From Bryoerythrophyllum caledonicum (Eukaryota > Streptophyta > Bryopsida > Pottiales > Pottiaceae), in contig OZ020524.1 in the NCBI GenBank assembly GCA_963971425.1, positions 17,115,845 to 17,179,844 of the forward strand: a stretch of 64,000 bases of DNA, read 5' to 3'. A program made the position numbers and the translations under genes. Below, piece after piece: positions 1 through 40,300 of the stretch (positions are counted from its first letter, which is position 1; every line of letters begins with the position of its first letter). The notes under the pieces were generated by a model. The model was not told where the DNA came from, searched no databases, and was given only the letters and a program-made list of their open reading frames with translations.

Positions 1-1103
1 GCACCTTTCCAATGTCACGAGGATTTGTGTGCGTTAATTTCCGCATTACTTCTTTCCGGTTCGCTTCCACCCGCGACTCTCTCGAACTTCCCGAATCCGA
101 GCTCGTCAATTCCACATAACATACTTTCCCTTCAAACTCACAATATTTCAAAGCGCAAAGCTCCTTGCAAAACGTCGTCTTCCCGATTCCTGCCATGCCA
201 TGTAGCCCGACTATGCAAACACCATCGTTCGCACTCTGCAACTCTTCGATCTTCTCGTTGATAGCCTGCAGCCCATCACACTAATGTCAGACCCCTCACT
301 GGATTCACGACGTTCCTCATCTGCGCTGTGCCAATACACAGCTCAAACCAAGATCAAGACCACGTAACTGCATTGTTCCATATCATTCAGGTGGCCAGAT
401 GTTCACAGCCAACGCTGTGCAACACCAGAACGCATCTCACTTTGCATATTGTTTCTCTTCCTTGGACTCCTGGATCCGGAAAAGCATCCCGAGGTGCAAC
501 TAGACCACACAGAGCATTCACAATCTCAGCCAACAACCCCGTCTGCCCAGATGCTCGGTTGTACTCGCAACTTGTGTATTTGCCACTTTGATCAACAAGC
601 ACTTGCAAGGCTTCCTCCCACTGTTCTGTGTCAATAAGTGGCTTCCCACTTCCCGTTCTCGTCTCCGCTCCCTCCTTCACTTTCATCTCTATCCACCTCT
701 TACACCACCTCTTCCGATTTCCTTCATCCTTCACTTCATCTCTTGTCAGTCCCAAAAAAACCGGGAGAATGGAAACCGCACTCTTTCCCTTCTCGAGTTC
801 CTCCCTCTGAGCCTGCACGAAAGCCGCCAGCTCCAGCATGGGCCACTCTGAGTTGGTGAAGAATGCTTCGGACAGAATCGCTATCACAACGCGACATTCC
901 CTCACAGCATCGAAGAGGACATTCGCAACCGAAGCATTTGCCCCCGCTGGTAAACTATCCCATCGGTCACTGTCGAAGAATGGACGATAACCGCGGTCCG
1001 TCAATCTCTCAAACAGCAACCCTGTGAAGTCTTTATCTTTCCCGCTGTGACTTAGAAACACATCATGCTTGAACGCCGGATACCTGACAAATCCAGTGGC
1101 CAT
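1..1103 (-). CDS. TIR-NB-ARC immune receptor, N-terminal part (runs off left edge)
   Basis: Two exons are visible. Exon 1 (1103-441) encodes a TIR domain: the start region reads KHDVFLSHSGKDKDF, followed by FFDSDRW and SEWPMLELAAF, which carries the Glu expected of TIR NADases. The donor at 440 (GTGAG) and the acceptor before 265 are both phase 0. Exon 2 (265 to the edge) begins AINEKIEELQ and reaches the P-loop GLHGMAGIGKTT, the kinase-1 motif of NB-ARC ATPases. In this family the TIR signals cell death through NAD+ cleavage and NB-ARC is the nucleotide switch. Any LRR part lies outside the window. The start is uncertain: an ATG at 1136 is also in frame, and I prefer 1103 (MATGFVRYPAFK). A broken relative lies at 28.9-36.6 kb. 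Membership of the NLR class is secure; which pathogen it senses cannot be told. Confidence 0.88.
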
Positions 1104-2251
1104 ATATGCGATGAACACCATCGATCTTACCATCATTCGTAAACTTGCCCACTCACAACTGTCAACTCCAAACCAATCTAGCTACCAGAATGTCGTAAAA
1201 AACAACCAGATGCTCAACTATAGTGCGGCAGCTAGAAATCAATCTACGCTAAGAATATACACCCCTTGGGAGTAGATTGCATGCACGACACTCTACCAGC
1301 TCAAGATGCCGACGATGCAGTACGGAAACTCCATCTCACCTGTTCTGGACATCCGCGTTCGAACGACCCTCAGCATCGTCAGTCGCCATCGTAACTGCCG
1401 CTGCAAGGCAACATCGATGAATGGAGCACAAAATTACAGACAACTCCAATAGATTCCAAGATCCATATACACATATCTGCTGTGCCTAACACGGCAGAAA
1501 CCCATTTCCATACAAAATTCACCTCTGAGAAAGAGAAAGGACCGCCCTTGAAAGTCACTCATACCGACTTCATTTGACGAGCGACGACAAGTTACGCTTC
1601 TTCCAGGGTTTGCGACACATACGCGAATTAATACCTGAACCAAGTAACGCTCCTTTAGACCGCTTTGTCTTTGGTTCGCACATATCGACCAATATATGAG
1701 TGCAGCAAGAGTGGCGACAACAACAAGTACTATCGTCCACAACTTGGACTACTCTCTATTCCAATATGTGCTAAAGTGTGCCTCCTTCTTCCAAAGGCGA
1801 ATCTTCCAAGTGGCTAATTAGAGTACATACACAGATGTTGATAGCTGCCAGCAGCAACCAGATCCGATGAGTCCACGAAAACAAACCATGAAAAACTTGA
1901 CGATGTTTGCATCAGCACACATTCAGCAAGACCCGAGACAAGCTTTAAGATGTCCGGGCAATCACGCGAAGATGCGGACAAGCAAGAAATCCATCCCTAC
2001 GACGCTACCAAGTATTGAAATTAGATGCATCTTGTAAACCCAGAGAACATCGAAAGATCAAAAAACACAATCTACAACATCACAACCTCATTACATAGAC
2101 AGGAGCAACGGACGAAGCCAGTTCCCACCCCAACCCGCAGCCCTAAGGCCTAACTCACCGCGCACTCCAACCACCACGTTGTGGAGGAAACGTAGTAGTG
2201 CCGTGAGTGCCGCTGCAGCTCGCCGATGAAAAGTGCCATTACTGTACTCTA
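1104..2251. other. Upstream region of the TIR-NB-ARC gene
   Basis: Holds the presumed promoter and 5' leader of the minus-strand TIR gene and the weak membrane-helix reading at 1635-1742. I see no other convincing gene, RNA or repeat before the Tc1 element begins. Confidence 0.4.
1635..1742 (-). CDS. Possible membrane-anchor exon upstream of the TIR gene
   Basis: A short open stretch starts MWTIVLVVVATLAALIYW, a convincing single hydrophobic helix, then turns basic and meets a possible donor (CAG/GTATTA) at 1634. It lies on the same strand about 530 bp upstream of the TIR exon and could be a 5' exon adding a signal anchor. I could not find an acceptor in the right phase joining it to the TIR exon, so it may equally be chance. 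Confidence 0.2.
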
Positions 2252-3076: not shown

Positions 3077-3454
3077 GGGAATGGTGTGTGTGATTTGTGA
3101 TAGACTGAATGTTGAGACAATCCTCAAAACAGAGAGTGTTGTATTGTGGGATGCATGAGTGTTGATTCACATTGGGCATACATGATGAGTGATTAAGAGC
3201 AAAACGATTTTTCATGTATGCATATAGGCTTGTGTTTTGGCGACACTTCTCTCTCCTCTCTGCTCCAGCGCCTTGGCTCCCTTCTCTCCTCCTTGCTCTG
3301 CTCCAGCCTTGTTATCCTTCCTCTGCCAATTGTCACGTATCAATCCTGCAACCCCCTTTGCTCTGCTCTAGCCCCTTGGCCCCCTTCTCTCCCCCTTGCT
3401 CTGCTCTAACCCCTACTCTACTGCTGTAGCTAGCATCACGCACTCTTTAAATTT

Positions 3455-4465
3455 ATGATGGCAATTTTAGATGAAATTTGTGCTCGCATCATAGGTTTGA
3501 GTGAGGGAGGATTTACAGGAGTTCAAATTGCAGCTACTATTGGAGTTCCTATTAGAACAGTTACAAGGTTAGTAAAAACATTTAGAGAAGATGGAACCTA
3601 CAAGTGCAAACCTTGCGGTGGAAGTCACGCTAAAAAGCTTAGTGATAGAAATGTTCGTAGTATTGTGCATTACTCAAAAATTCATCGTTGTTCTTCACTC
3701 TCAGAGATTACCAATGCATGTCCTACTCAAGTGTGGAGACGTACTATTCAAAGGGTCTTACATAAAAATGGCATTTTGAGTCGAATTGCAGTCAAAAAAC
3801 CTTTTTTGACACCTCGTCACATGTCTCTACGATTAGCTTTTGCTCAGAAGTACCGTGGATGGAGTGCAAAAGAGTGGGAGCGTGTTGTTTGGACAGATGA
3901 ATCTACTTTTGAAATTGGAAAAAATTCTCGGCAAATTCATGTTTGGAGAAGTGCATACGAGCGTTATTCATCAAGTTGTCTAGCTCCTACTTTTAAAAGT
4001 GGAAGGACTTCTTTAATGATTTGGGGCGCATTTGCCGGAGGACAAAAGTCAAAACTTATCTTTATGCCTAAAGGTCAACGTTCTGCTAAGGATTTTATAG
4101 AAGTGGTTTACAATGCCAAATTGGTTTATTTCATGGGTCAAATTCCACAAGGAGTGCTTATGGAAGATGGGGCACCCGCCCATAGAAGCAAAATATGTGA
4201 AGAATGGAGACAGAGCCACCTTCTCGAAAAGCTCGACTGGCCTGCAAACTCTCCCGATCTCAATCCAATCGAGAACGTTTGGAGGATGTTAAAAGATGTT
4301 GTGCAACATGGCAAACAATGCCCTAGAAGCTTAGATGTGTTGAAGGTAGTTCTTGAAAGAGAGTGGAAGTTAGTCAATGGTACAAAGCTCCTTCAACTAT
4401 GTCATTCTATGCCCTCTAGGTTACTAGCAGTGATTGACGCTAATGGAGGACATACACGTTGGTAG
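3455..4465 (+). CDS. Tc1-like DD34E transposase
   Basis: A 336-aa open frame of normal length for the family, which excises the element and inserts it at TA. The N-terminal ~110 residues look like the paired helix-turn-helix DNA-binding part (GVQIAATIGVPIRTVTRL). The RNase-H-like catalytic triad is visible: Asp in WTDESTFEIG (about residue 148), Asp in LMEDGAPAHR (about 230) and Glu in SPDLNPIENVW (about 265). The last two are 34 residues apart with Glu last, so this is Tc1-type and not mariner DD34D. The start is the first of two adjacent ATGs. There are no stops or frameshifts. The C-terminus (GGHTRW) is encoded at the inner edge of the right terminal repeat. Confidence 0.95.
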   Translation: MMAILDEICARIIGLSEGGFTGVQIAATIGVPIRTVTRLVKTFREDGTYKCKPCGGSHAKKLSDRNVRSIVHYSKIHRCSSLSEITNACPTQVWRRTIQRVLHKNGILSRIAVKKPFLTPRHMSLRLAFAQKYRGWSAKEWERVVWTDESTFEIGKNSRQIHVWRSAYERYSSSCLAPTFKSGRTSLMIWGAFAGGQKSKLIFMPKGQRSAKDFIEVVYNAKLVYFMGQIPQGVLMEDGAPAHRSKICEEWRQSHLLEKLDWPANSPDLNPIENVWRMLKDVVQHGKQCPRSLDVLKVVLEREWKLVNGTKLLQLCHSMPSRLLAVIDANGGHTRW

Positions 4466-9714: not shown

Positions 9715-12700
9715 TCAACGTTTTGTCGAACCATCGCCCACATCCTGAACAGCAGCTTCGCTTCGGAAAAACTTGGAGCGTGAGAGATGGCTGGCCATGT
9801 CCTCCAGCTCTGAGATGATCGTTTCAAAGTCAGGTCGTTCGTGCGGGTTGTGCGTCCAACACCTCTCAACGAGGGACTTGAAGCCCCTCGGATAGGACGA
9901 CGCCAGGTCCAGCTTCGGCCGGGTGCCCTTCTCAAGCAGAACATTGGCCTTCTTTTTCTTCCAGAACTGCTGGGCTTTCTGAGGCTCAAACAAGTCGTAC
10001 AAAATCGTTCCAAAGGAAAAGACATCCATGCTTGTGTGCAAAGCTACACCGTGGTGCTGCTCCGGAGCTCTTCGGTACCAACGTGGTTGCCACTTGTTCG
10101 GTGCGGTCCTGAAGCTGCGCAAGCCAAAATCAGCGACTCTTGCAGTCATGGAGTTCTCGTCGATGAGAATGCAATCCGGTGAAATCTCGCCATGGATGAT
10201 GGGGATCTCCCCTCCCTCATGCAGGAACTGCACCCCGCAAGCAACTTGGAGCGCAAGGTTCACTTCCTCTCGGAACCGGTGCCGTCTCGCCAGAATGGGG
10301 TCTCCTTGAGACGACGACACAGCTGTAGACTCCTTCCGTTCAGAAAACTTGCGGAGCGTCACTCCGTTTGCAAACTCTGTCAAGACCACAAACGGAGTCT
10401 GACTCGTTGCCCCAAGGTATGACACGAGATTTCGGTGCTGCTTCCTCACCAGCAGCTCCATCTCGTGCTTGAAACTTGCAATGCTATCGTCGGTATTGAT
10501 CAGTGTCAGCTCGATGTGCTTGGCCAGCAATTGCTGGTCACATCTGTTCAACCGAACGGGCCATACTTCTGCGAATCCGCTGCCTGTGCGGATTGGTTTG
10601 TCACTCACAACGACAACGTCTGCGTGATCTATTTCCCAGCTCCAGTCACCTGTAATATCTGTGCACAGAGACAAGTTATATCTAGTTCAGAAATTAAAGA
10701 AGGCAAAACCGTCATTTTACATCCCTGAACAGAAAATAAGAAACAAACATATGTAACTCTTCTGCAAAGATAGGACCACGATCTCGACATAAAAACATGA
10801 GAATATACAATCACCAGGAATACTCAGGAGCTAGACTTGACTTACCGATCATGAAGTCATCTTCGTCTATGATGGAAGGATCCTGGAGGACCGCCTTCAA
10901 CCCTGGAGCAGGCAGATGGTGAGCCTCGCAACCAACGAAGGCGGTGATCTGCAACAAAGAGTCACGAAAGTGTCGAATTTGTTTGCAGATGTCAACAAAG
11001 TCTGGGCGTCTGAATGGGTCAGTATCCCAGCATCTCCGGATGTAGTCGGTGAGTCCATCGGGGAGCTTGGAACTGATATCTTCTGGCAGCAGCTTCGGCC
11101 TTTCCCCGCTCTTGACCTTGGCAAACAACGAGCTAGGTGACAGACCTGAGAAATCTGAAAATGGTTTCTTCCCGGTCAAGATTTCGTACGAGACCATACC
11201 GAAGCTGTAAACGTCCAGTTTGAAAGGATAGTGCTTACACTTCCGGGAGCTGGTTGATGAGGTCGTCGTCGTCGTCGATTGCACCAGTTTAAACAGCTCG
11301 GGGGCTTTCCAGACAAGGGTATCAACGTTCAAATCAGACGCATCCGAGTAGTTTCTGAGGTTAGCTTTGGCGAGCCCAAAGTCTGCCAGTTTCACGGTGA
11401 GATAACCTTTCTCCCGAAGGTTCAGATCCTCGCTTGGCTTGACGAGAATATTGTCGCCCTTGAGATCCTGGTGTGCAATCCCTTGGCTGTGCAGGTACCG
11501 GAGCCCTTTCACTATCTGAAGCATGCAATCAAGCGCTACCTTGAGGAAAATTGGCGACTTCTGGAGGTCTCTCCACTCCCGCGTTTCGATGTATTCACTC
11601 AAGGTCTTTTGCATGCGTTCTGTGACGAGATACAGCTTCCCGTCTTCTACAAAATACCCGAATAACTGGATGATGTTCGGATGAAGGACCTTGAACAACA
11701 TTCTGACCTCGTCGTCTACGTCAGTTTTTCCATCAATCTCCTTCAAGGAACACGGTAAGCCAAGCCATCGTGTCCTGTACACTCTGCCCAGAGACCCCAG
11801 TCCCAAGAGCTCCCTCCTGCGGAAAAACCCCTCTGCTTTCAGGTTCAAAGCTGGAAACGCTCCTTTGACCGTGGGCATGGACTGATCCAGCTGCTCCAAC
11901 TTCTCAGCCAAATACGAAGGCAAGCTCCGAATCTCTGTTGAACTACTACTGTCGGTTTTCAGCTTTGAGAGCAGCACCTCACGGTCCCAGTTCAACCTCA
12001 GCAGCTTGCAATCCCTCTCCCAGCTCGGCAGGAAATCTCCATATTCTGCCATGGCTAGTCTCTGGAGATTAGCTACCTTTTGGCACCAGGACGTGCTGGC
12101 CTTGATTGCAATCTTGAGGGCGTAAAGATACCATTTCAAGTCGAGGATTACCTCAGCAAACGCGGAGGTGTTCCCAACCAGCTCAACAGCGGCTCTAATC
12201 CAGGTCGACGAGCTTGTGCAGTGTCTATGAATCAAGAATTTGGCCTCCTTCACAGTGCTGTAGAGTGCTGCCAACGTGGGAGCGCATTCCTCACCGATTT
12301 TGTCCCTCTTCTCCTCCAGAAACTCCCGGACATGATGCAGATATTTTGACATGAACCTCTCGCAGAGGAGATGGTTGAAGCGCAATGAGGGCATGCAGAC
12401 TCGCTCAATACTCGTGATGCATGACACGATGCAATTCAGGCATTCCTGTGCTGTCTGGCAATGGCTGTCTACTAGTTCCTGCTTGTCGTAAAGAAATTGC
12501 AAAGTGTCTGCTTCGTCCTCTGTTTGCTGCGGCTCCTCAATTGCAGGAAGATGATCCTGATTGGAACAGTAACCTGGTGTTCAGAAAAAAGAGGTTGATC
12601 AGATAATCAACTAAATGAATAAGCTCAACAACAACAGTCTGAGAAGTCTGAACCATGATGAGTTCACGTGATTCAAATCATTCATTGCCTGAATTGTAAT

Positions 12701-14550
12701 GGACAATGCCACATTTGATAAATCAGAGAGACTTACCTGTCATCAACAGATACTTTAAATGCTTCAACCTTGAACAGATGGCATCAAAACGTGGGCGCTG
12801 TCGAGGATCCTGGCTCCAACATTCCATGATCAATTCCTTCAACTTTCTGGGACAATGATCAGGTAGTTTTGGACGATCGCCCTTCTTGATCTTCCTCTTT
12901 ACAACACCGACAGGGTCATTACAGAAAGGCTCTTCTCCAGTTAGGATCTCATAGCAGACCATCCCAAAACTATACACGTCACTCTTCTGGGGGCGTCTTC
13001 CCATTTCAGTCCATGAAGGATTCTCTCTTTGGTTTCTTCCACCTACAGATTCGATAACCTCCGGAGCCATCCATCGATTTGTGCCCGTGTTACCAGATTG
13101 TTGCGAGAATCTCTCACTACTGTCCAATGTCTTGGAGAGCCCGAAATCTGCCACTTTTGCATGCACGTATCCGCTCTCGGACTCCTTTCCCGCAACGCAC
13201 TTGACCAGAATGTTCCTGGACTTCAAATCCCTATGCACAATGGAAGGGCTCAAACTATGAAGGTAATGCACACCCTCTCCAACCTGAAGCATAATATCGA
13301 TAGCCTCGAAAAGGGAAAATGGAGATTCAGCATCACCACTTCTTGTCTCACATCGTCTTTGCATCAACTCGTAAAGGTCTTCATCCATCAGCTCCATGAT
13401 AATGTAGCAATGTTTCTCGTTCTCCGCATGTGAGCAAAACATAGAGGTGATGTTGGGATGACATAATCCTGCTAAAATCCTCACTTCCGTATCAAAATCC
13501 GCCCTGTTCCTGGCCGGGAACTTCTTCTTTGCAACAGGTGTTCCGAGCCACGTTGCTTTGTACACAGTCCCTGAAGCACCTCTTCCCAGTTTCTCTGTTG
13601 TTGGTGTGACCACCCAGTTCACCAGCTTCCCCAGAACACTACCTTCGTCGACGGTGCTCAACCAAGATGTTACAGAATTCATATGCGTCATTGACTTGAC
13701 TCTGTGAAGCCTTTGAAGTAGATAAGGGCCCAGTTCTTTCTCGTCGTTACTGAACAAGGACTTCTCAGTCAGCCCATGAGTCACTTCTGCAACCACATTC
13801 TCCGAATCTACAGCTGCCTTCCGCTTCACAAATTTCACTTCGTGTTTGTGAATGTCGGAAACTTCTTTCATGGTTAGGCATCGATGGCTCTTACTACCAA
13901 AGGCAAGACGGCACAACTCCAGGTTGAATCCCAGCGATGAAACATACTCCGATACATTCGTCAGCGTCATTGCGGCTTGCATCCATGTATCCTTGCAACA
14001 GCCTTGAACAAAACTCTCAATCTGTTTTGACAACGCCACCAGGAGCTTGAAGATCTCCACGCACCTCACCGTGTCTTCAGATGAACCAGCTGGTCCATTA
14101 AACTGGGCACGAAACACCTCAAAGAACGACCTCGCGGTTTGCACAACCCCGTGGAGCTTCTCAGCAAGGTACTGGCATTGCTCCTTGTTGAATCTCCGCG
14201 GATGCATCTTCTGCACTGCCTCATTACACTGCTCAACGAGCTCCAAGTAGGACCCTAGCATTTCCACTGGACCAGGAGCAGCTTCTGGAATAAAAACAAT
14301 GGAAATAATCAATATAAAAAAAAAGGACTGTTGATCTCCACCGAGCCGAAGCATTCACATGGCTAGCTTGCTCCAAGATGATGCACAGTAACAGATTCAA
14401 GACACACGACTATACCAGATTCAATACAACACTAGAACAATTCAATTAAGGACGAGGAGCTCTAGTACCGTTTCCAGGGACTTCTTTGCGACGCGACCCT
14501 GAAGGAAGCCTTACAAACTCCTTCTTGGCCATGGCCGGCGGTTGCGCCAT
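9715..14550 (-). CDS. Triple tandem kinase: helical domain-kinase-helical domain-kinase-pseudokinase
   Basis: Four exons join in frame by phase-1 introns: 14550-14469, 14284-12737, 12573-10846 and 10658-9715, about 1433 aa. Kinase 1 (~255-535) has G-loop LGRGASGTV, HRDLKSRN and DFG and should be active. Kinase 2 (~796-1080) has LGLGSLGRV, a catalytic Lys near 821, HQDLKGDN (non-RD) and DFG. Kinase 3 (~1135-1410) keeps a G-loop, the ATP Lys (~1166) and DFG, but HRDLKxxN has become HGEISPDC (1275-1282), so it lacks the catalytic Asp, Lys and Asn and is a pseudokinase. Helical regions of ~230 aa precede kinases 1 and 2 and resemble each other (Cys...TWMQAA / Cys...TWIRAA; LGPYLLQRL / LPSYLAEKL). 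They recall the four-helix part of plant MLKL-like kinases, by inference. No signal peptide or membrane helix is seen. Kinase-pseudokinase fusions are known plant resistance proteins. Two or three separate genes are less likely, since every junction keeps phase. Confidence 0.85.
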
Positions 14551-15470: not shown

Positions 15471-17849
15471 TCATGCTGTGGGGGCGGGCGCCGTTGCTGG
15501 CTCAGGGAAGAAATGGCCGACGATGACGACGACGGGGCTGCGCACCACATGGTGATGGCCCTCGTCGGACCACGACACGCTGCCCCACGAGTGCAGCAGC
15601 TCGCCGTTCACCACTTCCGGCAGCGCGGGCTCCACCACCAGCGTGAACTTCTGAACTGGCGCTGCCGCCGAGAATGTCAGCTCGGACGGCTCCACGCGAA
15701 CACGGAACCCGCGCGGGTGCGCGTCTACAGTGGCAGTGTAAGTCGCTGGAGGGCCTACGATCGTGAGGCTGCGGTCGAAGGGGATGGGGGAGAGCGCGGT
15801 GGGGTCGAACTCCGCGACGAACGACGGGAAGTTGATGTCCTGCATGCGCTGTGCAGGTGCGTCCGGGCACTCGAACCCGTCCGGCTCGACGCGGCGGATG
15901 AGTTCGTAGTTGTAGCCCATGGCGCACATGAACAGGAGGTAGTCGCGGGATCCCATGTCGTACACCAGGCCGGGGTCCATGGCGCTCTCGGGCCTCACGA
16001 AGCCGGCGCCGAAGGCCCACGGCGAGGCTGCGGTGCTCGTCACCCGGTCCGTGATAGTGCCGTTGGTGTTGCCCACGGTGGTGGCGGTGGTCATGAGGGC
16101 GGACTTGATGGCGGCGGGGCTCCAGTCGCGGTGCACGGAGCGCATCAGCGCGATGATGCCGCTGATGTGCGGGCACGCCATGGACGTCCCGTACATGAGT
16201 GCGTAGGGCTCGTTGTTGATGCCGGCCGCGAGGATGTCCACTCCCGGTGCGGCGATGTCGGGCTTCAGCCATTGCGGCCCGCTAAAGCGCACGGGTCCTC
16301 GGCTGGAGAATCCGCCCACTGCAGGCGCCGGGCTGCCGCCAAAGCGAGTCGTAGCGCCGTGAATGCTAGCCGACGGCGTTGCGGACTCTGCGATGTATGC
16401 CATGGCGCTCTCGCGAGCGTCGCTGCCTAACCACAGGAATGGACCGTCGAGATCGCTTAACTTCTCCGCGTGCACATCCTCTCCCGTGACCGCTGTGTTT
16501 GCGAGAATGAGGGCCATGGCGCCTGCGTCGATGACTTCTTGTAGGCTGAATGGGTGAATTCCACCATCGAAGTCGCACATCAAGATTGTGCCTGCGACGC
16601 GAGATGCGTTCAGGGAGCGTGCTTCGCAGAAGCTCGCATTCTCGGCGGCGCTGGCGATGATCGCAGCATCGCCCGCGTACAAAAGAGGAAGTTCCTTGTC
16701 CTTGATCCTGGCGTCTTTTCCATCGTACAGGGTTCGCCCGAGCACCACGTGACCGTTTCCCAGGACTACGTCGGCATCGAGGTCGCGGTCCGTGGTGGTC
16801 GCAGCCACTGTAATCATCCACGGCGCGACGTTGGCGATGGATCCCGGCTTCGGACCCTCGTTTCCAGCGGCTATGGAGACCACAACTCCTCTCTTCACTG
16901 CGTTGTAGGCAGCAATAACTTTGCCGTCTTCGAAAAAGTGGGCGATGCCGTCGTCGCCGGTGGCAGATCCAATCGACGCGGAGATGATATCCACGCCGTC
17001 CGCGACCGCCTGGTCGAAGGCCTGCAAGATGTCGGAGCTTGTGCCAGACCCTCCGGCGCCCCAGAGCGCTTTGTAGACCGCAATTCGCGCCCTTGGCGCC
17101 ATTCCACGGGCCGTCCCCTTCGCAAGGCTGTCGGAGCCCGCGCGGTACGCCCACCGCCCCGCTGCAGTGGAAGCGCAATGGGTGCCGTGGCCGTTGAAGT
17201 CGCGCGGCGACCTGTACTCCGTCACGGTGTCGTTGATGGGACCTTTCGCGGCCTCGTAGCTCTTCACAAAGTACCGCGCACCGATGATCTTGTTGTTGCA
17301 ATGCTGGGCCGTGAACCCCGGCCCCGTCTCGCACTCGCCCTTCCACCGCTCCGGAACGGGCCCCAGCAGGCGGTCGCTGAAGCTGAGGCGCTCGGGCCAG
17401 ATCCCGGTGTCGATGATGCCGATGATCACATCGTCGCCGTGCCTGCTCTCCGGCCACAGCCTGGAGCTGGGGTCCGACAGGCCCAGAAAGTCGGGCGTGT
17501 GCGTGGTGTGGACCTTCTGCATGGTGTCGGGGTACAACGTCACTACGCACGGCAGCGACCTCATGTGCGTGACCTGTTCCGGCGTGAGACGCGCCGAGAA
17601 GCCGCTGAAGACGTGGTGGTAGACGTGGTGGAGCGTGTCCATGCCGTCGTCGGGGTGATCTTCCGCCAGCAGCCCCCGCGCACCGTCCATGATCTCCGTG
17701 TACCACGCGTGCCTGGCCACGAAATCTTCCTCATGCGAAGCATTCTTGGCTGTCTGGACGATGTAAGTCTTGCTGCCCACCGGCGCCCCGCTGAGCCCAT
17801 CCAGCGACGTGAGCAAGAGCACGCAGCCGATCCCGAACATGCCCATCAT
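15471..17849 (-). CDS. Subtilisin-like serine protease (plant subtilase)
   Basis: A single uninterrupted exon of 792 aa, the usual length for plant subtilases, which are secreted proteases of the wall and apoplast. Order: signal peptide (MMGMFGIGCVLLLTS), I9 propeptide (~28-115), then the S8 domain with Asp147 (IDTGIWPE), His221 (NGHGTHCAS), oxyanion Asn330 (AAGNEGP) and Ser556 (GTSMACPH). A protease-associated insert lies near 420-500 and an Fn3-like C-terminal domain near 670-780. All catalytic residues are present. I start at 17849, the first of two adjacent ATGs giving a good signal peptide; an in-frame ATG at 17963 would bury it. The gene is intronless and GC-rich (long antisense open frames result) amid AT-rich spacers. 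TATATATA lies only ~12 bp upstream of the ATG, so a start at the Met near 17840 or an upstream noncoding exon is possible. Confidence 0.93.
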   Translation of the reverse strand: MMGMFGIGCVLLLTSLDGLSGAPVGSKTYIVQTAKNASHEEDFVARHAWYTEIMDGARGLLAEDHPDDGMDTLHHVYHHVFSGFSARLTPEQVTHMRSLPCVVTLYPDTMQKVHTTHTPDFLGLSDPSSRLWPESRHGDDVIIGIIDTGIWPERLSFSDRLLGPVPERWKGECETGPGFTAQHCNNKIIGARYFVKSYEAAKGPINDTVTEYRSPRDFNGHGTHCASTAAGRWAYRAGSDSLAKGTARGMAPRARIAVYKALWGAGGSGTSSDILQAFDQAVADGVDIISASIGSATGDDGIAHFFEDGKVIAAYNAVKRGVVVSIAAGNEGPKPGSIANVAPWMITVAATTTDRDLDADVVLGNGHVVLGRTLYDGKDARIKDKELPLLYAGDAAIIASAAENASFCEARSLNASRVAGTILMCDFDGGIHPFSLQEVIDAGAMALILANTAVTGEDVHAEKLSDLDGPFLWLGSDARESAMAYIAESATPSASIHGATTRFGGSPAPAVGGFSSRGPVRFSGPQWLKPDIAAPGVDILAAGINNEPYALMYGTSMACPHISGIIALMRSVHRDWSPAAIKSALMTTATTVGNTNGTITDRVTSTAASPWAFGAGFVRPESAMDPGLVYDMGSRDYLLFMCAMGYNYELIRRVEPDGFECPDAPAQRMQDINFPSFVAEFDPTALSPIPFDRSLTIVGPPATYTATVDAHPRGFRVRVEPSELTFSAAAPVQKFTLVVEPALPEVVNGELLHSWGSVSWSDEGHHHVVRSPVVVIVGHFFPEPATAPAPTA

Positions 17850-19093
17850 CTTCGCAGTCTGTATATATATACGAGTGTAGCTCCACCACCTGAATGATGC
17901 AGCTTGTTGAATGGAACCAGGATCAGTAGAACCGACCACTGGAATAGTAATATCGATGTGCATGCACAGCTGTTGGAACCCACTCTAGCAACAAGAGTTC
18001 CAACATCTAGTGATCGGATGGAGAAAATACAAGGAAGAACTTCGGTGATCTCAGTCGTGAAAGCCCAAGCTCAGTTGAGGGCGAGCAGCGGCACGAGTCA
18101 TCGTTCTCAGATATCAAGGAAGCTGAGGACGTGAATGAGAATTGGCGTCGAGTTGCTCTGGCTATTTACGTGGTCAGGAGCCAATATTCTACATTGGTTT
18201 CTCTAGGAAAATACCGACAGGATCATTGGTCATTGCTTCTCTAGGGAAAATATTACCAACCGTTCTCTGGTCACTGATCTGGAAGTGGACTCAGATTCCG
18301 TAGTTTGATCGCATTCTAACATACAGGACAGAACACTGATGAGAGTAGTGGGTTGCCATGGACACTTTATCTCCGCGTTAGCAGATGACGCAGTTGACAG
18401 TCATTATGGACTCCTCACCTCCGAACTTCTGTCAAGGTCCTGTGCGCAAGCTTCTTTACTGAATGTTGAGCCTGGAAGCTGTGCAGACCTTGGAACTTGG
18501 GTCTGCTTACTTACCGACATGTGACGCCGTTCTTTCGCAAAAGACTGGAGCTTGTGACGTCGATATGAGCTCACGTGTGCTTTCACCACCAACCGTAATC
18601 TCCCCATCTTACGGACAATGTAAGCGATGTGCATTTTTGGAGAGAACAAACAATGATAGTCAATAGAATTTCAATTTCAAGCCAAGCGATTTCATGTTTT
18701 TCCGATGAAATGGGAATTAGTTATGGATTTTCAAAGTGTGCAACCATGTTTAGTCGGTGGTTGTCATTAGCACTCACCAAAAGTAAGGGGATTTGACCAA
18801 TAGCAAACTTCCATTAGGAGCTTAATGGGATGTAAGTGGGTTGGATATACAATCCCCAGTTTTACAGGTGTTGGTTATGGGTTTTCATTGGTTTACAAGG
18901 GGGTCACCTTACCTCTTCGAATTTATTTAAGAGAGATTTTGATTATATTACTTGTTACACTACAATCCTACCAATGAAGAGATCAAACACTCTTCTGGAA
19001 CCACCAGGGTTCATGAGCACTTATGGGGCAGGATTTCGGCCCTAAATGTTTGTCACATGAGCTACAAATAGCTGATTGATTAGATCCACTTTA
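17850..19093. other. Upstream region of the subtilase
   Basis: Contains TATATATATAC at about 17861-17871, a TATA-like site on either strand. The rest shows no recognisable gene or repeat. Confidence 0.4.
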
Positions 19094-35848: not shown

Positions 35849-36397
35849 CACTAAAATTTATGTTTAGTGTAGTATATACTAAATGTGAACCCATACACCA
35901 ATTGCAAATGAGGCATTTAGTGTAGTGACATAACCGTACACTAAATGCCAACTACTACACTATTTGTCAATTTTGGTAAAAATAATAAAATTATTTCTTT
36001 CACTTGTGCACATTTAGTGTATCAATAGTACAAGTGAAGAAAAAGGTCCAGAAGTCGAGGGCTGTCATGGTATCTCATCAGCAACTTTCAAATGGCCATA
36101 ACTCACTCAATTTTTATCCTAATTGGGCATATGAGGTGTTTTTTGGCATCTACAAAAAATTTAGATGCCAAAAAACATCTCATATGCCCAATTCGGACAA
36201 AATTTGAATGACTTATGGCCATTTGAAAGTTGCAAATGAGAAGAAGCATGGGCTGGAATGATTGGGGTTTTATTGGGATTTGAGCGAGGGTTACATTAAT
36301 GACATTGGCAGCTGACACCAATTGTCAACTTCTTTACAAATAGTGTACTAGGGTAAGTACACTATTTGTACCACTACACTAAACATAAATTTTAGTG
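35849..36397. repeat. TA-flanked MITE inside the NB-ARC pseudogene
   Basis: 549 bp. The terminal inverted repeats are perfect over 25 bp, beginning CACTAAAATTTATGTTTAG. TA flanks both sides (35847-35848 and 36398-36399), pointing to a Tc1/mariner-type MITE. Despite starting CACTA, no 3-bp duplication is present. It contains the long hairpin at 36081-36233. Confidence 0.85.
36081..36233. repeat. Long hairpin (arms ~72 nt) inside the MITE
   Basis: The left arm starts GCAACTTTCAAATGGCCATA and the right arm ends TATGGCCATTTGAAAGTTGC. The arms meet at GGCATCTA / TAGATGCC around a loop of about 9 nt. Pairing is nearly perfect, with a few bulges. Confidence 0.88.
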
Positions 36398-36744
36398 TAC
36401 TTCTCGCAATAACTCCTCTTTGCTTCCTTTTTCCAACTCTGCAAGGCATACTCTCCCCCGAAACTTTGTAAAATACTCGTTACACAAAGCCTTGCAGATA
36501 GACGTTTTGCCAATGCCACCCGTTCCATACAATCCCAAAACACAAACTCCATTGCTTCCAGAATTTTGTAACGCCTCGATCTTGTCTTGGATCACCAACA
36601 AAACCAGAATTTTTTTTTTTTGAATTAGTGACAACCAGAAAGATTTGGAAACTACATACACAACTTTAAACAAATTGTTCAACTTCAATCCTACTATGAA
36701 ACGCCAACCAAATTCAACAAAGGTTGAAGTGACTTTCACTAACC

Positions 36745-37308
36745 TTACACAATCTTGACCTTCCTTGAATATAAGAGTCCTCCAGCTTGTGGAAAATGGT
36801 TGAAACTCATGGAATTGTATGAAGAATCCAACGCCATCGGCGAGGGATGGGTGTGAGTGCCCTCACATGTACAAATCATGAGGCCATCAATGCATTCGTG
36901 TCTCAATGGCTTCACAACATACAAGGTGATCACTTCGGGTTTACTCTGACTATCAAATGGGCACTCTGTACTGAAAAAGCGAGAGCTTTAGGACGTCGCA
37001 GACTTGGGATGAGGACTGTTTTTAACAGCCTTCTGCCCGTATTTACGCCACTTGTAGCCATCGTCTAAGGCTTTCATATCAGTTCTGGTTTAGGAGGAAA
37101 GGCAATCAGCGCGACACTGATTCATCTGAGTCACTTGGGTATTTCCAGGATATCGGCCAGACTGCATCACTGGAACTGATACAACCATCGGCGAACTTCC
37201 CCGATCAGGCAGGAAATTCAGCGCCTGTTGATCGCTGAGGTTGCTAGAGAATCTGAAGACAAAAAACAAGCACAGAAGAAGAATCATCGCCTCAATTAAA
37301 CTGCTCAT
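36745..37308 (-). pseudogene. WRKY transcription factor fragment
   Basis: Minus strand near 37060 reads [20 protein letters not shown], the WRKY signature that contacts W-box DNA. Further on it reads STEC and then CEGTHTHPSP, giving the second Cys and the His-x-His of the zinc finger. Between them a stop replaces the expected YYRC, so the first zinc ligand is lost. Upstream, 37262-37090 is an exon-like stretch (LPDRGSSPMVVSVPVMQS). The domain type looks like group II. It is broken, although the same frame runs through most of it. Confidence 0.75.
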
Positions 37309-37387: not shown

Positions 37388-38084
37388 TCACCCTTGTAGG
37401 AAGGCGGTTTGAGGAGGCTGTAAAGCGGTGGTGACTTGCAAGGACTGGAGTTTCCACTCGCTTGTCAAGGACGGATGAAGGACCTGCAGGCGGGCGAAGG
37501 CGTACGGCGCGACGACTCCCACGAACCACAGCCTGTTGTTGGCGTACCTGGCCAGCAAGTTACCCAGCTCCGCGGCGGTGACTCCGCAACTGAGATGATC
37601 GGCGCCGTGAGCCACTGCAGGTCAGCGATGTGCAGAATGGCATGCACTCCTCCACGATCTTGCTCAGCTCCGCCAGGCTCTGCTCCATCTGCAGGCTGCT
37701 GCAGCGGCGGAACGAGGACAGGGACAGCGTCGGGTCCAGGAACTGCACCCCCGCCAGCTGCTTGGAAACAAGACCGATCTTCAGCCTGGATGCCAGATCC
37801 TCCACCACGGAGCTCGCTCCCACGGCGGTATCGCCGATCAAAAGGGCGTTCCGGTTCCTGGGGGAGAGCAAAATCTCCACCATGTTGCGAATGTCTTCTT
37901 CCCTCACTGCAGGGTCCACCATGCCGGTGTTGGCTCCGCTCGAGACCCTCGGCATCATCTCCCTTCGTACACCTTCAAACGACACATCCGACTGCTGCCA
38001 TGAGCTCACGGAGGTGCTCTGGCTCATCACTCCCGGTGACATCTTCACGGAGCTCTTCGTCTCGTTGATCTCAAGACAAGACAA
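37388..38084 (-). pseudogene. SMXL (SMAX1-LIKE / Clp-related) fragment
   Basis: Minus strand carries VREEDIRNMVEILLS, then NALLIGDTAVGASSVVEDLA, then ILHIADLQWL, then AAELGNLLARY, NRLWFVGVVAP and LHPSLTSEWKLQSLQV. These match, in order, the first ATPase-like region of SMXL/D53 proteins, repressors in strigolactone and karrikin signalling. Two single-base frame changes (near 37645 and 37610) break the reading. The N-terminal double-Clp domain and everything after the first ATPase region are absent. Confidence 0.75.
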
Positions 38085-40300
38085 GACAAGCTTTTCACGA
38101 AGACACCCCTCACATCGAGAAACCAGGAATTTCTCTAGGAACCAGTTTATACTTTTAAGATTTTATGCAAGTTTATCGTTTGTTTAGTGGGGCCCACCAC
38201 CAACGCAGGCTCATCGGCACACAAGTGCGTGAGCTTAGTGTTTGTTCATTCTCTTCACCAAGCCAATGGCCTCGGGATATAGATTAGTGTGTTAGAACTA
38301 CTTTCCCCTTTCGAGGGTAAACACTTTTCTACAGTAGGTGCCTTAGAGACAACCATCATGTCAACCTCTCTAAGGGCTTTTTGGGTACCCTTACAATGAG
38401 GTCTTGAGAACCCCCCATCATAGTTGGGTGGACTATGGTGGTAGGCATGTTGGTGTGGGGATTTGAATTCATAAGTACCTCACTATTTCAAAGGTCAATG
38501 TGATTGGAGATCCGGTGGGTGGAGAATTCATGAGAGCATCCTCGATGCATACACTGAATATTAGGCCCTCGACCTCAATAGCAAGGGGTGATTCGAGAGT
38601 CTAAAAAAACAATGGCCACTTGAAGATTGTCCCCTAGCTTCTAAATTAGCCTCAACCTTGTTTTTAAAGCATTTTTTGCACCATGTGGCAACACCTCCTC
38701 ATTGATGGCACAAAGAACAAAAGAACTAGTAAAGTTTAATTTTTAATTCATTCATGCTTGTAAAAATTGAAAATCTAAATGGTCGAAACTAAAGTTCATG
38801 CTTCTTCTTGAAGGAAAAAAAAATGTGAAAAAGTGAAGGTCTTTCATTTTTGTAAGGATATTAAATTTGTTCTGTGCACCTTGCTTTAAAAAAGGTGAAA
38901 AACTTTGACTCATATCAGAGTAAAAGTTTCACACTATGTAAGGTTTCCTTTTGACAATCCCAAATAAAATAATGTTAGTTACTAGTATAAAAAATCTCAT
39001 GTTGAATAGAAATTCGTGTCAAAATATTTTGAAGATGCTGGAAGTGCATACCCTCAACAACTTATTTTTTAAAATGGTAGAACTTCTTTTCTTGTTAGTC
39101 GAGTAAAAACAAAAAATTACATTCCCACACAACTCTCATCTTCTTGCATCTTTGTACGAAATTCCAAGTATTAGAAATACAAATTGCAATCATGGGAACA
39201 TGCTCAAGATTTGCAAAAGCCTTCCTTAAGACTTTTGGTCTTTAGGGCCTGATACAAGAGAATGTATTGAACAAATTTTAACTCTTACAATAAATGGCCA
39301 AGCCAATATACTTGGTGGTCTATACCATGGATATCAGGTATCGAGACATGTGGCATTGACGATGTAGTGAGAGGAACATGCGAAGTGAGCTTAAAGCGGC
39401 GTCTATCAATGTTGTGCCAATTGTACAGCGGGCTCCGTCGTGCCATCATATGAATCTAAATGCAAAGTTCTGAGATTACGAGATGCCGATGCAAACACCA
39501 TGCTCTGAAGACAATACACTCTCCACGCATAGGGAGGTTAATCAAAGGAGGAGCTGGAGGTGGAACAAGGGAGGAGTAGGTAAGCAATTTCTTCACTTTC
39601 AAGTGTACAAGAGTTAGGTTTTCTTCAAGTTCGTTAAGGATGTGCATAAGGACGTGCTCACAATGAACGTTGCCAATGTGGTGTAGGATCTAATTGATTT
39701 GAGAAGATCCATTAACCAAAAATGCATGAAAACATAGACCACTTTTAATCCCTCATTATATCCAACAATCCAAACTATTTCAGAGGTTTAATTTCTAATG
39801 ACTAGAATAAAAAATATGGTTCATGAAAAGTTGAATTAAGAAGAGTCAAAAGATACTAGAGACGTCATAGCACAACCATCAAAATTGCTAGCCAAACAAA
39901 ATTAATGTTCTTGAAAAAATTTCTTTATATAGCCCTACTAAAAATGTTAACTTATGCTCCTGTAAATGGAATATTGTCTTTCTACTTCCTATACAAAATT
40001 CAAAATTTCACACCATTTTTAAGAACCTTTCCATATTCTAGAATATTATTTAAAAAAAATAACTCTTGATTTTGAAGGTAATGAAATAAAATCAATGTTG
40101 TAAACACATTATATAGAGTATCTCAACATGATTCATCCAAAAATGTCAACTCAAGTCTTCTTAAATCAAATGAAAAAAAAAAACCCTACAATGGGCCTAG
40201 GTCGGTGAAAAAAGATTTACCAAAAGAAGCGCCATTCACGCGACACACGCCATCCAGATAAAAATCCAGATCCCAATAAAGGTCGCGTGGAAAGCCCGTC
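38085..40300. other. AT-rich spacer, nothing recognised
   Basis: About 2.2 kb with no convincing gene, RNA or repeat end. Short open stretches (for example near 39456-39647) lack any family feature. Confidence 0.4.

Follow-up and report, generated by a model that had tools for sequence, protein, structure and literature searches.

The stretch of DNA analysed here (the window) comprises 64,000 nucleotides of the moss Bryoerythrophyllum caledonicum (contig OZ020524.1; C12:17115845-17179844 of the 437-Mb genome) and contains, on its minus strand, a predicted four-exon gene for a protein with two helical modules (H1 and H2) and three kinase domains (K1, K2 and K3) in the order H1-K1-H2-K2-K3. The exons at 14550-14469, 14284-12737, 12573-10846 and 10658-9715 encode 1433 residues followed by a stop codon, without an internal stop, and the parts of the gene are as follows:

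14469..14550, minus strand: exon 1, 27 residues, uncertain and perhaps 5' untranslated region (in-frame opening, phase-1 splice)
13617..14282, minus strand: H1, helical module 1 (family alignments A3 and A5; match to the H2 profile)
12744..13616, minus strand: K1, kinase with HRDLKSRN and DFG (Pfam match in exon 2)
12574..12736, minus strand: intron 2, 163 bases, phase 1, GTAAGT donor, joining K1 to H2 (donor common to relatives)
12470..12571, minus strand: linker YCSNQDHLPAIEEP..., the putative inherited tail of an H1-K1 gene ahead of H2 (similarity to the tails of P0012 and P0019)
11819..12469, minus strand: H2, helical module 2, of a family apparently related to DUF1221/MLKL_N (profile and Pfam matches of relatives)
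10949..11818, minus strand: K2, kinase with HQDLKGDN (non-RD) and DFG (Pfam match in exon 3, invariant columns, tree)
10659..10845, minus strand: intron 3, 187 bases, phase 1 (position and phase common to the C9 and C14 copies)
9772..10656, minus strand: K3, predicted pseudokinase with HGEISPDC and DFG (Pfam match in exon 4, tree)
9715..9717, minus strand: stop codon (gene model)

The open coding sequence of the four exons amounts to 4302 bases, and all three introns are in phase 1. A first-pass annotation of the sequence had proposed three kinase domains on one strand, joined by three phase-1 introns into about 1433 residues without a stop, and this is borne out by the gene model and by Pfam, according to which exons 2, 3 and 4 contain a single kinase domain each (best E 1.2e-50, 2.2e-38 and 3.8e-31). 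The GTAAGT donors that it had placed at 12736 and 10845 are indeed those of introns 2 and 3. The introns are poorer in GC than the exons (36-39% vs 48-59%) and richer in T. The helical parts of exons 2-4 matched no Pfam family at E 0.01, and neither a photosensory domain nor NB-ARC was found by Pfam in these exons. Among named proteins, the best matches come from Ceratodon and Physcomitrium. The donor of exon 1 (GTACTAG) is weak and the exon lacks homology support, with no consistent first exon upstream of the 12 H1-K1 loci searched, so that translation may start instead at the internal methionine in ...GPVEMLGSYLEL.

To trace the origins of the kinases, 62 kinase domains were placed in a maximum-likelihood tree, built without a Pelle set and after removal of five weak or partial domains (P0282_k1, P0049_k2, P0027_k2, P0046_k2 and P0035_k2). 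K1 groups with P0121 and P0122 within the H1-K1 family. K2 lies in a clade (99.4/100) with proteins composed of a helical module, a kinase and a pseudokinase, its moderately supported sister (76.7/89) being the DUF1221 kinase P0046. K3 lies in a third clade (100/100), adjoining two genes of the same genome (88.3/96) that we take to be ILK-type because of their ankyrin-like starts; its nearest PDB sequence match is CTR1. Since K1, K2 and K3 thus occupy three separate clades, with K3 beside ILK-type kinases, a simple triple duplication is rejected, and the earlier proposal that one unit is present in a triple version finds no support. The catalytic residues, for which the lysines were read from the gene model and from the invariant alignment columns K277 and K622, differ among the three domains. 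K1 keeps all of them (HRDLKSRN, DFG) and K2 keeps K, E, D and N together with DFG, while K3 has HGEISPDC where HRDLKxxN is expected and retains DFG; in all eight members compared, K3 has other residues in place of the catalytic D, K and N. K1 and K2 are therefore predicted to be active kinases and K3, the last kinase, a pseudokinase, as the first-pass annotation had it. By the gene model, three kinase-type domains, one of them a pseudokinase, stand in one chain, where tandem kinases have two or more and usually one pseudokinase, and a kinase directly follows a helical module, as in plant MLKLs.

For the helical modules, the evidence comes from relatives and from profile comparisons. In the H2 family, DUF1221 is matched by three of five sequences (best 6.2e-5) and MLKL_N by two of the five (best 2e-4), these five being close relatives and not independent tests. 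Compared with each other, the H1 and H2 profiles give a match probability of 96.4%, and H1 matches P0046 with 60%. The top PDB match of the H2 profile, at E 0.07 and in the N-terminal region of the entry, is 6lba, which we take to be Arabidopsis MLKL. The corresponding search with H1 returned only chance-level matches, the best being ribosomal eS1 (E 0.033), with 6ka4, presumably Arabidopsis MLKL as well, at 0.34; MLKL_N is matched by 4 of 71 full H1-K1 proteins (best 0.058). Taken together, the matches to two related models and those of the profiles make homology to MLKL-type bundles likely for H2 and, at one remove, also likely for H1. RPW8 is not claimed as the family of H1: it is matched by 5 of 71 members of A3 (best 2.1e-4, E up to 10), but by only 1 of 18 H regions taken alone (0.085).

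The second part of the gene also occurs without the first. When the genome was searched with exons 3 and 4, two places besides the window exceeded 50% identity, each with both parts: a copy at C9:14.647 Mb (63% for exon 3, 59% for exon 4) and one at C14:10.675 Mb (57% for both); the next-best matches reach 36%. Both copies share the position and phase of intron 3, which are also seen in the read-through ends of P0232-P0234, and when joined they encode 855 and 838 residues. The exon 3 match begins at residue 35 or 36, which leaves residues 1-34 of that exon unmatched there, and the copies have first exons of their own, MLAAGQLINIQMLSKFLRGFS at C9 and MALSVAPRGHLSFSVVGTILRVWRALADRTRGFP at C14, which by eye match the starts of Ceratodon P0001 (M758_8G158200) and P0002 (KC19_11G116100), respectively. 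These two Ceratodon proteins and the C9 and C14 copies agree with the window gene in the order H2-K2-K3 but, unlike it, lack H1-K1 and start with a first exon of their own. P0001-P0003 are 56-60% identical to H2-K2-K3 of the window, and H2-K2-K3 proteins of 848-881 residues occur in other sequence entries. No H1-K1 was found upstream of the C9 and C14 copies among the exon 2 matches listed (84 of 1046 candidates scored), nor was a credible copy of their first exons found beside H2 in the window. These own first exons, together with the lack of an upstream H1-K1 among those matches, suggest that H2-K2-K3 is a separate gene elsewhere and that the window copy lost its first exon and gained H1-K1. 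Between the window and the C9 copy, the ratio of nonsynonymous to synonymous substitution rates (dN/dS) is 0.175 for H2, 0.214 for K2 and 0.237 for K3, and against C14 it is 0.171 for H2 and 0.166 for K3, K2 being saturated and not computable (pN/pS 0.33); dS is near saturation, so that these ratios are rough, and they include the time before the fusion.

H1-K1, in turn, belongs to a large moss family that is fused to many partners and includes Physcomitrium proteins named light-sensor protein kinase. In 10 of 12 loci fetched from the same genome, the window included, the H1-K1 exon ends at a phase-1 donor right after LKYLLMTG (the 12 were drawn from 91 listed matches, and L023 and L024 are near-identical). 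The window thus shows the family trait of a helical-kinase exon with this donor; among the matches listed, its nearest copy in the genome is 55% identical. Read-through ends of the LLMTGK type occur in the open frames of ten relatives (P0122, P0123, P0125-P0127, P0131-P0133, P0135 and P0180), which we take to be genomic. On the other side of intron 2, the exon 3 start resembles the tails of H1-K1-type proteins. With the tail GFSSYQDSYPSTEEPS of P0012, a Ceratodon phytochrome-kinase, as query, it ranks first among 127,918 six-frame positions of the window, and with that of P0019 (identical to the tail of its copy P0136) it is the second-best place, offset by two residues. The linker is absent from the C9 and C14 copies. 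Because of the resemblance, the exon 3 start is assigned to the first gene, and the simplest reading is that exon 3 opens with the former tail exon of an H1-K1 gene, which would have lost its stop and now continues into H2. A single fused gene, as first annotated, is the likeliest model in view of the shared donor and the tail homology, and homology likewise suggests that all exons are joined in one transcript.

What the computation yields directly is the layout of the gene, the origins of its parts, its catalytic residues and the low dN/dS within its modules. We consider it fairly probable that these reflect one chimeric moss gene, assembled from H1-K1 and H2-K2-K3, which carries MLKL-like modules and acts as a cell-death or defence switch. 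An H1-K1 gene with a short tail exon would have lost the stop in that exon and been joined to an H2-K2-K3 copy devoid of its own first exon. The product, transcribed as a single unit, would have about 1,400 to 1,433 residues, with two HeLo-type helical modules, two active kinases and one pseudokinase. K3, together with the kinases, would keep the helical bundles in check. Some change at K3 or K2, for example when a pathogen molecule or an upstream kinase binds or modifies it, would then allow phosphorylation by K1 or K2, in cis or in trans; the released bundles may oligomerise and elicit cell death or a defence reaction. Such a role in signalling or defence is likely by association only, given Pm13, the kinase of Pkn-NLR proteins (both discussed below) and relatives fused to NB-ARC or phytochrome.

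Several points weigh against this interpretation. The first-pass annotation had spoken of an MLKL-like helical-kinase unit, which holds insofar as relatives of H2 match DUF1221 and MLKL_N and H1 matches H2, and fails insofar as the window's own H1 and H2 match neither model. Furthermore, neither is matched by any of 18 H1-type sequences, and H2 matches P0046 with a probability of only 3.7%. Some H1-type sequences match unrelated families, namely DUF1617 (5.7e-5, 2 of 18) and Knl1_RWD_C (1.1e-4, 1 of 18), so that single-sequence E-values of this size prove little. At the junction, the tails of P0018, P0024 and P0032 have no match to the exon 3 start, and P0121, the closest H1-K1 relative, stops short of the common donor. 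The alternative that bears most directly on this junction, two adjacent genes, with H1-K1 reading through the donor to end just after K1 (...LLMTGKSL, stop codon at 12723) and H2-K2-K3 standing on its own, is nevertheless improbable. It would agree with the stand-alone H2-K2-K3 genes elsewhere, with H1-K1 proteins of about 500-570 residues that are predicted alone (e.g. Ceratodon P0138), and with one polyadenylation-like hexamer in intron 2 (loose set AATAAA, ATTAAA, AATAAT and AATGAA), which by sequence makes a polyadenylation site there possible. However, it leaves a gap of just 163 bases and a second gene without a start, since exon 3 has no in-frame ATG before its 60th residue, which lies within H2, and no known first exon is credible there; nor does it account for an exon 3 start that looks like an H1-K1-type tail.

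A fusion that arose by chance in the genome, with little or no expression and no function as a whole, would be consistent with its rarity: at an identity of at least 45%, a K1-like domain is combined with a K2- or K3-like one in none of the 120 listed homologues (of 122 above the threshold of the homologue search), among which the exact fusion appears to be known only from the window. It would also fit the loss of the HRD arginine in K2, which has HQD where seven compared relatives have HRD, and the K3 branch, the longest of its clade. On the other hand, 4302 open coding bases with shared splice positions and the low dN/dS of H2, K2 and K3, albeit in part a matter of pre-fusion history, speak against this, and we regard a chance fusion as quite unlikely. 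Rather unlikely, too, is a real fusion protein that serves light or developmental signalling instead of defence or cell death. Physcomitrium P0035 and P0172 are named light-sensor protein kinase, the Ceratodon phytochrome P0012 has the same helical-kinase end and K3 groups with ILK-type kinases, all of which would suit such a role; against it stand the absence of a Pfam photosensory domain from exons 2-4 and the relatives that are fused to NB-ARC as well.

The triple-kinase gene is a further variant of the helical-kinase arrays that recur in mosses. Its layout had been thought to have no known counterpart, but the order H-K-H-K-K is also found in three Ceratodon predictions of 1414-1504 residues, P0004, P0005 and P0009 (their second helical module was recognised by eye, with an alignment for P0004 alone). 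Although the order of modules is the same, their kinases are others: none belongs to the clade of K2 or to that of K3, and HRD is retained in the third, so that the shared layout looks convergent. Among P0004-P0044, mostly from Ceratodon and with several genes represented by two isolates, 22 of 41 have an additional non-kinase Pfam accession, including phytochrome and NB-ARC; others are presumably lectin, WRKY, GTPase and HSP70. Helical-kinase modules are fused to NB-ARC in Ceratodon P0018, P0023, P0032 and P0033, while P0012 is a phytochrome (PHY, GAF, PAS) with a helical-kinase end. No publication on a moss triple-kinase MLKL-like protein was found in the open-licence literature.

Further arrays were observed elsewhere in the genome. 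At C11:23460058-23465625 (plus strand; L032:2059-7626) an uninterrupted frame of 1856 codons has the order H-pseudokinase-kinase-H-pseudokinase-kinase, with HGELK in kinases 1 and 3 and HRDLK in kinases 2 and 4. MLKL_N passes the Pfam cut-off in it (44.1 bits, two stretches), such that two MLKL_N modules and four kinases are present without the need for a splicing argument. Two adjoining frames on C11 (869 and 903 codons; 23.397 and 23.490 Mb) contain two kinase matches each. A single frame of 1100 codons at C11:8352232-8355531 (plus strand; L035:2233-5529) encodes, in this order, RPW8, NB-ARC, a sub-threshold winged helix and a helical-kinase module, i.e. a nucleotide-binding leucine-rich repeat protein (NLR) with an MLKL-like kinase at the usual place of the leucine-rich repeats. 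At C3:3.841-3.903 Mb (L033), each of five helical-kinase exons is followed within ~1.2 kb by another kinase match on the same strand, possibly a cluster of H-K-K genes, and at C10:7686317-7690234 (plus strand; L034) two helical-kinase frames (575 and 685 codons) lie in series with ~140 bases between them, possibly one H-K-H-K gene.

The layout of the window gene is reminiscent of the cell-death switches of plants and animals and of disease-resistance proteins in crops. Among known systems, plant MLKLs have a helical module before the kinase, as does the window gene, in the account that covers the Arabidopsis MLKLs and Pm13 (PMC10951266). That account describes wheat Pm13 as a HeLo-kinase protein conferring resistance to mildew and sets its bundle beside those of MLKL, AtMLKL and NRG1; Pm13 has one helical module and one kinase, whereas the window gene has two and three (PMC10951266). 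The tandem kinases of grasses (Yr15/WTK1, Rpg1, Sr62 and Pm24) share with the window gene a kinase and a pseudokinase in one chain. To our knowledge, helical modules are absent from these grass proteins. The kinases of Sr62 are described as Pelle/DLSV (PMC8956640), and the survey around Yr15 gives one protein for Physcomitrella (PMC6170490). The moss PK-NBS-LRR (PNL) genes resemble the window gene in that an intron at the border between domains connects the kinase with other modules, but in PNL this intron is reported to be in phase 0 and not in phase 1 (PMC3352924); the NB-ARC that follows the kinase in PNL is missing from the window gene. The N-terminal kinase of a Physcomitrella Pkn-NLR is reported to cause a modest and variable cell-death response in Nicotiana (PMC11218826).

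Other features of the window include a subtilase in one open frame of 837 codons (15474-17984, minus strand), which lies upstream of the triple-kinase gene on the same strand, and open frames for a TIR domain (390-1181, minus strand; TIR_2, E 7.3e-15) and a Tc1-type transposase (3434-4462, plus strand; DDE_3, HTH_Tnp_Tc3_2). An open frame at 36395-36862 (minus strand) with a P-loop-like GTGGIGKTS looks like an NLR fragment, with no Pfam match at 0.001, and a match to the SMAX1 nucleotide-binding domain (E 1.4e-6) is found at 37563-38162 (minus strand).

On a wider scale, it is conceivable, as a tentative proposal, that an MLKL-like helical-kinase cassette underlies, in mosses, a receptor system that would operate beside NLRs or replace them. 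The cassette, an exon bordered by phase-1 introns, would have swappable partners, namely NB-ARC, phytochrome, lectin, WRKY, GTPase, HSP70 and further kinases, and the triple-kinase gene would be one of its products, with the pseudokinase as bait or lock. Moss and flowering-plant lineages split several hundred million years ago, and in several mosses genes can readily be removed. If the fused protein is made, it would unite MLKL-type executors of cell death with tandem kinase-pseudokinase resistance proteins, which have been studied apart, and would illustrate how exon joining can build such proteins. Mosses would then be a place to test the role of a pseudokinase within a kinase array.

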